This document shows positions 6,071 to 58,864 of a DNA stretch of 64,000 nt, piece after piece. The notes under the pieces are model-generated. The model saw only the letters and a program-made list of their open reading frames with translations, was not told the DNA's origin and did no database searches. The stretch's first letter is position 1. Each line of letters starts with the position of its first letter. The position numbers and the translations under genes are program-made. Origin of the DNA: Deltaproteobacteria bacterium GWB2_55_19 (GTDB taxonomy: Bacteria > Desulfobacterota > GWC2-55-46); the NCBI GenBank assembly GCA_001797465.1, contig MGPQ01000002.1:116539-180538 (forward strand), written 5' to 3'.

Positions 6071-6307
6071 TTTGTTTGTTTTTCAAAACTCCCGGGCATA
6101 GGTGAGCGAAGCATAAGGGAGGAGGAGACTCGCGAGCCGGGGGAGATTAGACGCGAAGCGCTCTAAGGGGCGAGCGAGTGGGCGGGGCAGGGAGAAAGCG
6201 AGCGAACCCTATGCCCAAAAGCGCGCGGGGCGCGCAAAAGAGCCTTGGGTAGAAGATTTAATTTGTCCGATTACGAATCAATGGGTTCTGGTTTCAAACC
6301 TGAACCC
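6071..6307 (+). repeat. Interspersed repeat family A, copy A1
   Basis: About 237 bp between thiD and radC, near-identical (inverted) to copies A2 (16.6 kb) and A3 (34.4 kb). In order: TTTTGTTTGTTTTTCAAAA; arm GGGCATAGG (6094-6102); a GAGCGAGC-rich middle; arm CCTATGCCC (6208-6216); a small hairpin GCGCGC/GCGCGC (6221-6235); a constant tract GTCCGATTACGAATCA; and a terminal palindrome GGGTTC...GAACCC (6283-6307). No open reading frame is conserved among copies. A GC-rich family C palindrome follows at about 6320-6340 (CCCCCTTTA/GGAAAGGGGG). No gene is seen in 6042-6384. Confidence 0.8.
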
Positions 6308-14844: not shown

Positions 14845-14869
14845 TCAGTTACCTCTTATCCATTTGTCT

Positions 14870-14890
14870 CCCCTCCCTTGATGGGAGGGG
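14870..14890. repeat. Family C palindrome between glmU and glmS
   Basis: CCCCTCCC (14870-14877) and GGGAGGGG (14883-14890) around TTGAT, followed by a degenerate second GAGGGGAGGGGG. It lies in the intercistronic gap and might adjust the ratio of the two mRNAs. Confidence 0.6.
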
Positions 14891-14914
14891 ACTGAGGGGA
14901 GGGGGATTTTTTCC

Positions 14915-16607: not shown

Positions 16608-16842
16608 TCGCTCTGCGGTCGAAGCCCTTTTGCGCGCACCGCGCGCTTTTGGGCATAGGATTCGCTCGCTTCCTTCCTCCCCCTCCCGCTCGCTCGCCCC
16701 TTGAGCGCTTTCGCGTCAATCTACCCCGGCTCGCTCGCCTCGCCCTCCCTTATGCTTCGCTCACCTATGCCCGGGGGTTTGAAAAACAAACAAAAAACGA
16801 TAGGCGGGCGGTAGGTTGGGCTAAGCACAGCGAAGCCCAACG
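16608..16842 (-). repeat. Interspersed repeat family A, copy A2
   Basis: Inverted relative to A1. GCGCGC hairpin (about 16632-16646), arm GGGCATAGG (16651-16659), GAGCGAGC-rich middle, arm CCTATGCCC (16764-16772) and GAAAAACAAACAAAA are conserved. The terminal GGGTTC palindrome and the ATTACGAATC tract are missing or diverged. It is followed by a hairpin TTGGGCT/AGCCCAA (about 16816-16840), which also follows copy A3. Confidence 0.75.
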
Positions 16843-17768: not shown

Positions 17769-18062
17769 TCACCCTCCCCTTCGTCCCCTCCCTCCAAGGG
17801 AGGGGAGATTACTGCAACTGGATTTCCCGTTTGAGACTTGCGGGAATGACGGCGTAATTGCCAGAGAGGGGCTTTAAAACGACCCCTCCCTACCTCCCCT
17901 TGTTAAGGGGAGGAGATAAAACCCGCAAGCCATCCGACCGTCCGTCTTTTAGCTCCCCTCCTTACCAAGGAGGGGCAGGGGGAGGTCGTATTTCTTTTCA
18001 ATCACCGGAGGGGAAAGTCCTCACCCTCCCCTTCGTCCCCTCCCTCCAAGGGAGGGGAGATT
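17769..18062. repeat. Family C palindrome cluster with an exact 42-bp direct repeat
   Basis: The 42 bases at 17769-17810 recur without change at 18021-18062; each contains the palindrome CCCCTCCCT/AGGGAGGGG. Between them lie CCTCCCCTTGTTAAGGGGAGG-like (about 17891-17911), CCCCTCCTT/AAGGAGGGG (about 17963-17985) and a family D module (17818-17852). No gene in 17739-18066. The copy at 18021-18062 starts 5 bases after the nrdJ stop and may end its mRNA. Confidence 0.75.
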
Positions 18063-34347: not shown

Positions 34348-34355
34348 TAAATCGC

Positions 34356-34628
34356 GGGTTCAGGTTTACAACCTGAACCCATTGATTCGTAATCGGACAA
34401 ATTAAATCTTTTACCCAAGGTCCTTTTGCGCGCTCCGCGCGCTTTTGGGCATAGGATTCGCTTGCTTTCTCCCTCCCCCGCCCACTCGCTCGCCCCTTAG
34501 AGCGCTTCGCGTCTAATCCGCCCCGGCTCGCTCGTCTCTTCCTCCCTTATGCTTCGCTCACCTATGCCCGGGAGTTTTGAAAAACAAACAAAAGGTTGTA
34601 GGTTGGGTTAGCGGAGCGTAACCCAACA
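34356..34628 (-). repeat. Interspersed repeat family A, copy A3 with trailing hairpin
   Basis: Near-identical to A1 in inverse orientation: terminal palindrome GGGTTCAGGTTT...GAACCC (34356-34380), GATTCGTAATCGGACAAATT tract, GCGCGC hairpin, arm GGGCATAGG (34447-34455), GAGCGAGC-rich middle, arm CCTATGCCC (34561-34569), GAAAAACAAACAAAA. A hairpin TTGGGTTA/TAACCCAA (about 34601-34624) follows. No gene in 34309-34633. Confidence 0.8.
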
Positions 34629-42300: not shown

Positions 42301-42313
42301 GCTAAAAGCGACC

Positions 42314-42420
42314 TTTATCTCCTTTCCAAACACGGGAGGCGCTGGCCGTTTCCAGCCACGCCCTGATCGGCCGATACCCCTTAGGTCTTAAACCCTTAGG
42401 CGGATCGGCTCGGAGACGGT
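42314..42420 (-). promoter_or_regulatory. Probable molybdenum cofactor (MoCo) riboswitch of modABC
   Basis: Minus-strand leader contains in order CTCCGAGCC, GGGTATC, a GAAA-type tetraloop stem GGCTGGAAACGGCC (about plus 42343-42358) and GCCTCCCG, then GGAAAGGAGA. This arrangement upstream of a molybdate transporter fits my memory of the MoCo RNA motif; I did not check it against a covariance model. It is followed by an intrinsic terminator. Confidence 0.65.
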
Positions 42421-42520
42421 AAATATTTAAGTTTTCAAAAGCGGATGGTACGGACCGGCTCTACCCGCCGCTTTCAGTCATTCGAGGATATCATGGCTTG
42501 CGCCCGCGAGTCAACCGCCT

Positions 42521-57783: not shown

Positions 57784-57853
57784 CCGGAAACGATAAAACC
57801 TCTCCAATACCCTCACCCTCTTTACCTTCGAAGGATCCGTGAGGCATTATCAA

Positions 57854-58024
57854 GGCAGGTCTCCTGACTTACGGGTCATCCTAATCTCCGCAACCTTCCC
57901 GGCGACCAGCCAGTGGCTCAATACGCGGATTTCGTAACCGTTTACAGTGGCGGGTCCGTTCCCGATTCTCCGACGGCAGTCGCGGTTATCAGCGACTGCC
58001 GCACAGACCACGGGATTCCCTTTT
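57854..58024 (-). promoter_or_regulatory. Cobalamin riboswitch upstream of cbiXC-cbiM-cbiQ-cbiO
   Basis: Minus strand contains the B12-box core GCCACTG (plus 57945-57951), a second GCCACTGG (plus 57909-57916), AGGGAATC near the 5' end (plus 58014-58021) and GGTCGCCGGGAAGG after the core, ending in a GTCAGGAGACCTGCC stem. With a terminator 70 bases on, this is a transcriptional off-switch: adenosylcobalamin binding stops expression of cobalt uptake and early synthesis genes. Confidence 0.93.
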
Positions 58025-58138
58025 CAAGCCCTTTTGGGGCGCCCTGATACGTGCTGGTCAATCATTACATCTTTGGAAAGTATGTGTCAAGGAAATACGG
58101 GGCGGATACGAATGGCGTTCACTTTACACATCTTGGGC

Positions 58139-58544
58139 GGGTTCAAGGTTGAACCCTGAACCCATTTATTCGTAACTCGACATACGCCTTGTATGGGCTC
58201 GCCGAATCTTCTGCACAATACCGTTTTGCTCGCTCCGCGCGCTTTGCGTTTTTTTAATTCCGGCATACTTTGATTTTTGCCTTTTGCGCCCTGCCGGGCT
58301 TTTTTCGGCATGGGGCTTCGCTCCCTCCGCCCTCCGCCCTCCGCCCTCCCCCGCTCGGCGCGGGGCCAATTTCAAATCGGGGCACTTAAGTCTACCTGAA
58401 GCACAGTTGTCCGATACGGATTTGCCAGTCCGGCGAGGACCGCTCGCCCCTTAGGGCGCTGTCGCGCCTTTTTACTTCCCCGGCTCGCTCATATGACTTC
58501 CTCCCTTAAGGTCGCTCACCCCATGCCTGGGGTGTTTTGAAAAA
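58139..58544 (-). repeat. Interspersed repeat family A, copy A4 (long form)
   Basis: Terminal palindrome GGGTTC...GAACCC (58139-58163), CCATTTATTCGTAACTCGACA tract, arm GGCATGGGG (58307-58315), arm CCCCATGCC (58519-58527) and TTTTGAAAAACAAA. The space between the arms is larger than in A1-A3 and contains a short tandem of CCGCCCT (about 58325-58349). Head to head with A5, so the two form a large inverted repeat centred near 58545. Confidence 0.7.
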
Positions 58545-58834
58545 CAAAAAAGAATTTGTTTTTGTTCTGTCTTTACAAACACACAGGCGCATGGCGGAGA
58601 GCGCCTCAGGGAGGGAGAGGCGAGCGCGCCGGGGTGGATTAGACGCTTGCGCTCGGCGCGCAAACAACTATGAAATGAGCGCGCAAGGGGCGCGCGAGCG
58701 GGTGGGGGAGGAAGAAAGCGCTTGGAGCCATGCGAATGAGCGCGCGGAGCGCGCAAAAAGGCTTTTTGGCAAACAGCATCGCCCGGCGCAGTTTAGTCAC
58801 GGAATTATGGGGTTCAGGGTTCAAACCTGAACCC
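58545..58834 (+). repeat. Interspersed repeat family A, copy A5
   Basis: Starts in AAAAAAGAATTTG; arms CGCATGGC (58588-58595) and GCCATGCG (58727-58734), GCGCGC hairpin at about 58739-58753, terminal palindrome GGGTTC...GAACCC (58810-58834). Less similar to A1 than A3 is, but keeps TTAGACGC and GAGCGAGC-type core. No gene in 57730-58864 besides the riboswitch. Confidence 0.65.
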
Positions 58835-58864
58835 GCAAGAGAAAAACACCCCTGCGGCGAGTAC

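Follow-up and report, generated by a model that had tools for sequence, protein, structure and literature searches.

The window analyzed here, a 64,000-nucleotide stretch (G000:C2:116539-180538) of a 2.625 Mb genome referred to below as the home genome (G000), holds five copies of an interspersed repeat, all at the positions at which the original prediction had placed them. The repeat is ~150 letters long, and its purine-rich strand, called the + strand throughout, runs from a T-rich 5′ end through the 5′ arm of helix P1, purine stretches, helix P3, the apical hairpin P4 and the return arm of P1 to hairpin P5. Core coordinates were obtained from a covariance model and converted to window positions. 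The five copies (A1 to A5), the parts of A1, and the palindromes at the A4/A5 composite are as follows:

6071..6307, + strand: copy A1 (core 6094-6239), a single of subfamily Z, comprising a T-rich 5′ end, the core, hairpin P5, a 3′ extension and the palindrome P6
6094..6102, + strand: 5′ arm of A1 P1, GGGCATAGG, covarying helix
6128..6138, + strand: 5′ strand of A1 P3, ACTCGCGAGCC; the outer tandem G.A site is T-A/C-G here
6147..6166, + strand: A1 P4 hairpin, TTAGA-CGC-GAA-GCG-C-TCTAA, a GNA triloop that includes the CGCGAAGCG DNA mini-hairpin
6169..6179, + strand: 3′ strand of A1 P3, GGCGAGCGAGT
6208..6216, + strand: 3′ arm of A1 P1, CCTATGCCC, covarying helix
6221..6235, + strand: hairpin P5 of A1, GCGCGC-GGG-GCGCGC, with A tracts on either side; the GGG loop is exceptional, GGA or GGCA being usual
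6283..6307, + strand: P6 palindrome beside A1
16628..16772, - strand: copy A2, subfamily Z, single
34355..34594, - strand: copy A3 (core 34424-34569), subfamily Z, single, with P6
58137..58163, no strand assigned: left P6 palindrome of the A4/A5 composite
58282..58551, - strand: copy A4, the subfamily Y member of a head-to-head pair, its apical region interrupted by a secondary insertion
58563..58758, + strand: copy A5 (core 58587-58758), subfamily X half of the A4/A5 head-to-head pair
58810..58836, no strand assigned: right P6 palindrome of the A4/A5 composite

The covariance model describes 146 positions and 34 pairs. P1 is a long helix, accompanied in some subfamilies by an inner helix (P1b), and P3 combines Watson-Crick with tandem G.A pairs; the internal loop is purine-rich, and the purine stretches GGGAGGAAG and GGGGGAGGAAGGAAG inside the fold are conserved. 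P5 is a G+C-rich hairpin with conserved A tracts on either side, and many copies carry a 3′ extension with a separate palindrome, P6 (GGGTTCAGGTTGCAAACCTGAACCC), at its end. P6 also occurs without the core, alone or as inverted pairs (L013 and the 1501-1660 region of L062), and may be an independent element. Some copies have lost the P3-P4 apical domains (L074 and L163) and others carry secondary insertions there, with P1 and P5 retained in both cases. The apical-region insertions are distinct modules by genus and are palindromic themselves (L018 1434-1530, L012, L044, and L166; L114, L117, and L119; L061 and L129).

The long-range arms quoted in the original prediction were right (GGGCATAGG/CCTATGCCC in A1-A3 and GGCATGGGG/CCCCATGCC and CGCATGGC/GCCATGCG in the others), with the correction that A1-A3, A4, and A5 represent three subfamilies of the home genus (Z, Y, and X, respectively) and that A4 and A5 are the two halves of a single head-to-head composite. 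Two features said to be kept at the ends proved less general: the GGGTTC..GAACCC palindrome lies beside A1, A3, A4, and A5 and is missing beside A2, while A1, A2, A3, and A5 have the GCGCGC hairpin and A4 has GCCC-GGCA-GGGC in its place.

The recurrence is not due to chance: in the home genome, a blastn search with A1 as the query returned 56 matches and iterated nhmmer about 55-60 copies, before the covariance model brought the family to ~80 copies. The repeat is not restricted to one assembly, as it was found in 23 of the 30 genomes and 8 of the 13 genera of the home taxonomic family, with genera g2, g6, g7, and g12 having their own sequence versions of a common plan. Six other families of the order, sampled by 18 genomes, yielded none, nor did the plasmid and phage collections searched, and a search with the core pattern matched solely groundwater "Deltaproteobacteria" MAGs (NC_groundwater_1706, 1707, 1708_Pr3, and 376_Ag). 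No Rfam family matched the repeat, either in the window (gathering score) or at 17 loci when the threshold was relaxed to E<=5. Some copies appear to cluster, with four pairs inside 20 kb of the home genome (L174, G000:C10:409000-428900) and several singles of G009 spaced 8-9 kb apart in one orientation (548977/557418, 588090/596691, and 2582651/2591844).

Covariation across the family

The original prediction held that pairing is kept while the bases change. We examined this with an arm-swap test that is independent of the structure-fitted alignment, using 59 copies from eight subfamilies and four genera. Cognate arms scored -27.5 kcal/mol compared with -19.5 kcal/mol for non-cognate arms, and the observed sum was reached in 0 of 5000 permutations, or in 1 of 5000 when exchanges were restricted to those within subfamilies. 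A covariance model, the next step suggested with the original prediction, was built from 13 Z copies of one genus, a single subfamily being used since the arms misalign in the mixed-subfamily MAFFT alignment (the RNAalifold input), and it found 123 matches, including copies in the other genera. In the alignment of these matches, which is fitted to the structure, double changes were seen at 34 of 34 pairs, with a score of 0.345 against 0.107 when shuffled and <=0.056 for slid structures.

The covariation of the arms, for which R-scape had been proposed, was assessed with an R-scape-like test (FastTree tree, Fitch changes replayed randomly on the branches, APC-corrected G statistic, and 40 null alignments). 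Five column pairs reached E<0.05; P1 contributed four of them and P5 the fifth, and no column pair outside the structure was significant. Genus g7 was looked at only once the model was fixed. Its P1 arms are fully paired (GTAACAGGGC/GCCCTGTTAC, GTAACATGC/GCATGTTAC, and GTTTACCCGGC/GCCGGGTAAAC), as is P3 (GCGAATCTCGCC/GGCGAGATTCGC, GCGAACCTCGCC/GGCGAGGTTCGC, and GCGAAACGCGC/GCGCGTTTCGC), with swap tests giving 4/5000 for P1 and 41/5000 for P3. Genus g7 thus behaved as predicted. Across the bacterial family, compensatory changes preserve the pairing, every related genus that was looked at closely has kept the ability to form the fold, and further copies keep this compensation rather than letting their arms drift apart. 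The arm-swap, tree-aware, and g7 results all agree in supporting selection on the fold, as the original prediction had suggested, and they extend that claim.

Folding strand and nature of the folded molecule

P3 contains two sites with tandem G.A pairs (5′-GA/5′-GA), at both of which the two strands exchange together for Watson-Crick pairs. The outer site reads GA/GA in 72 copies, GC/GC in 11, GG/CC in 8, TG/CA in 4, and GA/TC in 4, and the inner site GA/GA in 46, GC/GC in 40, GG/CC in 7, and GA/TC in 5. Because G.A pairs far exceed T.C pairs on the + strand (364 versus 25), it is the + strand that folds. The numbers of G.T and A.C pairs (98 versus 62) are compatible with either RNA or DNA.

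The hairpin loops fall into a few classes. Among ~100 copies, P5 loops are GGCA (51), GGA (40), GGTA (5), and GGAA (4). P4 loops are mostly GNA (~58), GACA (9), or CNNG (10). The GNNA loops mostly have C or T in the third position, and because this position is a pyrimidine, most of them are not RNA-type GNRA loops. The motifs d(cGNNAg) and d(gCNNGc) were reportedly selected as stable DNA tetraloops by Nakano in 2002. Closed by G-C stems, GNA and GNNA loops give the extraordinarily stable mini-hairpins of DNA, to which CGCGAAGCG belongs (PMC4686876). None of the GNA, GNNA, or CNNG loops was seen in eight terminator-like hairpins located outside the elements. GNA loops were also not used by the GTAGGGTGCGC REPs of the same genomes, in which they had been expected as a positive control; since these REPs are presumably handled as single-stranded DNA (ssDNA), GNA-type loops are not required of ssDNA elements. 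The DNA and RNA parameters of ViennaRNA contain no usable bonus for the observed loops, and the loops could therefore not be ranked.

Singles between tandem genes are co-oriented with the genes in 14 cases and opposed in 2 (on rough gene calls), which could come from transcription or from lagging-strand exposure. The original prediction left the choice between RNA and DNA open, and the loop classes, the strand-specific G.A pairs, and the head-to-head layout of heterodimers suggest, without amounting to proof, that the folded molecule is ssDNA. Copies in one genus are related by descent, which makes subfamilies and genera, rather than individual copies, the independent units of this evidence.

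Dimers, site turnover, and possible modes of spread

Copies occur as singles, which are common, or as dimers, all of which are head-to-head, and each pair looked at joins two different subtypes: in the home genus X is combined with Y, in g6 a is combined with b, and one g7 pair is likewise a heterodimer. Comparison between species shows that sites are gained, lost, or rearranged. A1 is absent from the orthologous site in three congeners, and G004 carries A2 at the same position as the home genome, as does G002 in a form that lacks P3-P4. The pair at G000:C10:421036 sits between two canonical terminators; at this site, G002 retains only CCTGAACCCGC, and G001 and G004 retain other remnants. At another site, the halves stand in reversed order in G004. 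These comparisons resolved neither a clean target-site duplication nor an exact excision. Points ~11141 and 58865 of the window adjoin in G001, G002, and G003, with the A4/A5 pair at one breakpoint, which indicates that a rearrangement separates these points in the home genome.

Searches for a partner enzyme covered several classes and identified none. The presence of Y1/RAYT genes (PF01797) does not track the repeat across genomes, matches being weak or absent in repeat-rich genomes, where a Y1 enzyme may have been lost or overlooked; no Y1 match was found in the repeat carriers G003, G005, G015, G017, G018, and G022, and the home genome has one weak RAYT-type gene. Among ten RAYT regions, only L159 has a copy of the repeat, ~900 bp from the gene, and at L153, L154, and L159 other, GTAG-type REPs lie at the RAYT gene. 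Reverse transcriptase (PF00078) is absent from the repeat carriers G000-G005, G009, and G015 and, among the carriers tested, was found in G006 only, a genome with two weak repeat matches. The Y2 transposase (PF04986, IS91-type) search gave no match, and the control genomes gave no match either. Autonomous copies with a gene between their halves were sought; the only inverted set with wide spacing that was read out encloses a housekeeping gene for an AAA+ ATPase (rarA-like, as judged by eye) rather than a transposase gene.

The repeat resembles REP/BIME (REPIN, RAYT/TnpA-REP) elements in its many intergenic copies, strand-specific hairpin, head-to-head heterodimers, and lineage-specific versions. 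However, its core of about 146 nt is about four times larger than a REP unit (20-40 nt), has a multi-helix fold with tandem G.A pairs, and does not flank the genome's RAYT. The definition of REPs includes an unpaired GTAG or CGTC at the hairpin foot (PMC3733652, PMC6006769), whereas the aligned and displayed copies of the repeat have no such foot, the sequence 5′ of P1 and P5 being C/A-rich or AAAA. The repeat works like a scaled-up REP/BIME but fails three defining REP features and is not to be filed as a REP. Derivatives of IS200/IS605 share with it strand-specific ssDNA hairpins near the ends and a lack of the usual terminal inverted repeats, but the repeat occurs in head-to-head pairs, and IS200/IS605-type TnpA was not found in most repeat-rich genomes. 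Integron attC sites are likewise large imperfect ssDNA hairpins with unpaired bases, recognized by shape; unlike attC sites in cassette arrays, the repeat is dispersed singly between genes, and in most subtypes no conserved GTTRRRY core is seen (GTTRRRY/RYYYAAC boxes judged by eye). Retron msr-msd RNAs also have a long outer inverted repeat enclosing a hairpin, but the reverse transcriptase that a retron has is missing from the eight carriers listed above.

The main rival to the ssDNA reading is a structured RNA, in which the + strand would be transcribed from its own promoter or by read-through into a 3′ UTR and would function as RNA, perhaps in the stability or processing of mRNAs or as a multicopy small RNA. 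We consider this rather unlikely. The covariation is what would be expected of an RNA family, and the co-orientation of singles with tandem genes, the excess of G.T over A.C pairs, and the stability of CTTG as an RNA tetraloop all fit it, but the GGCA, GACA, and GGTA loops, with C or T in the third position, are unlike GNRA, any given transcript would contain one half of a head-to-head pair in antisense, the C10:421036 copies lie beyond the canonical terminators of both flanking genes, and Rfam offers no match. A bidirectional transcription terminator or insulator between genes, with the - strand of P5 read as UUUU-GCGCGC..GCGCGC-UUUU, would account for the conserved A tracts on both sides of P5, for one P5 copy that fits the terminator pattern on the - strand, and for the excess of convergent over divergent neighbors among home-genome copies. 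It is nevertheless improbable, as two sites already have canonical terminators next to the element, the opposite strand is the one that carries the stable loops and G.A pairs, and P1, P3, and P4 would be unneeded, yet most of the significant covariation is in P1.

REP/BIME elements typically show head-to-head heterodimers, intergenic placement, and a sequence specific to the family (PMC3733652, PMC6006769), and together with the weak RAYT-type gene of the home genome these features could point to a REP proper, or an IS200/IS605-type palindromic derivative, mobilized by the RAYT/Y1 transposases of these genomes. This is highly unlikely given that P1 and P5 have no GTAG or CGTC foot, that the RAYTs sit among other, GTAG-type REPs, and that six repeat-carrying genomes have no Y1 match. 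Many copies are truncated or interrupted, as would be expected if an ancient inverted-repeat transposon were decaying passively and its fold had no function. However, cognate arms outperform swapped arms even inside subfamilies and other genera rebuild the fold with new sequence; the arm-swap and tree-aware tests go most of the way to refuting this reading, and we give it very little credence.

On balance, we lean toward a non-autonomous mobile element that acts as folded ssDNA and depends on an enzyme encoded elsewhere. The element would be interspersed and probably non-autonomous, with an active form in which the purine-rich strand folds while single-stranded, on exposure, e.g., as the lagging-strand template. 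A DNA-processing enzyme would then recognize the hairpins by shape and loop and copy or move the element. Spread probably takes place as head-to-head X-Y heterodimers, with many singles looking like halves left by insertion or deletion, and may proceed as is thought for REP/BIME (REPIN), through a different enzyme. More tentatively, the repeat may belong to a natural family of large structured ssDNA elements, selected as DNA and not RNA, with covariation that includes exchange between G.A and Watson-Crick pairs and among GNA, GNNA, and CNNG loops, and mobilized by an enzyme class not yet known. If the folded form is DNA, evolution would here have produced a large DNA fold of several helices, represented by >100 natural variants, in which rules for tandem G.A pairs and for GNA, GNNA, and CNNG loops could be read from covariation, as for RNA. 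It would also point to an enzyme by which such elements spread across an entire bacterial family, and would bear on why REP dimers are so often heterodimers, a frequency that has no obvious explanation (PMC3733652).

Other elements lie near the copies in the window. REP elements of the RAYT kind (GTAGGTTGGG..CCCAAC) directly adjoin A2 and A3 (16812-16842 and about 34598-34628), and REPs of the same kind flank a RAYT gene in the congener G004 (L159). A further palindromic family, CCCTCCCC..GGGAGGGG, occurs at 17769-17810, 18021-18062, 14867-14914, and 76-118, and its repeats are often inserted in the middle of an X-Y pair. The window also contains a cobalamin riboswitch (RF00174) and a molybdenum cofactor riboswitch (RF01055), at 57837-58061 and 42303-42427 (- strand), respectively.
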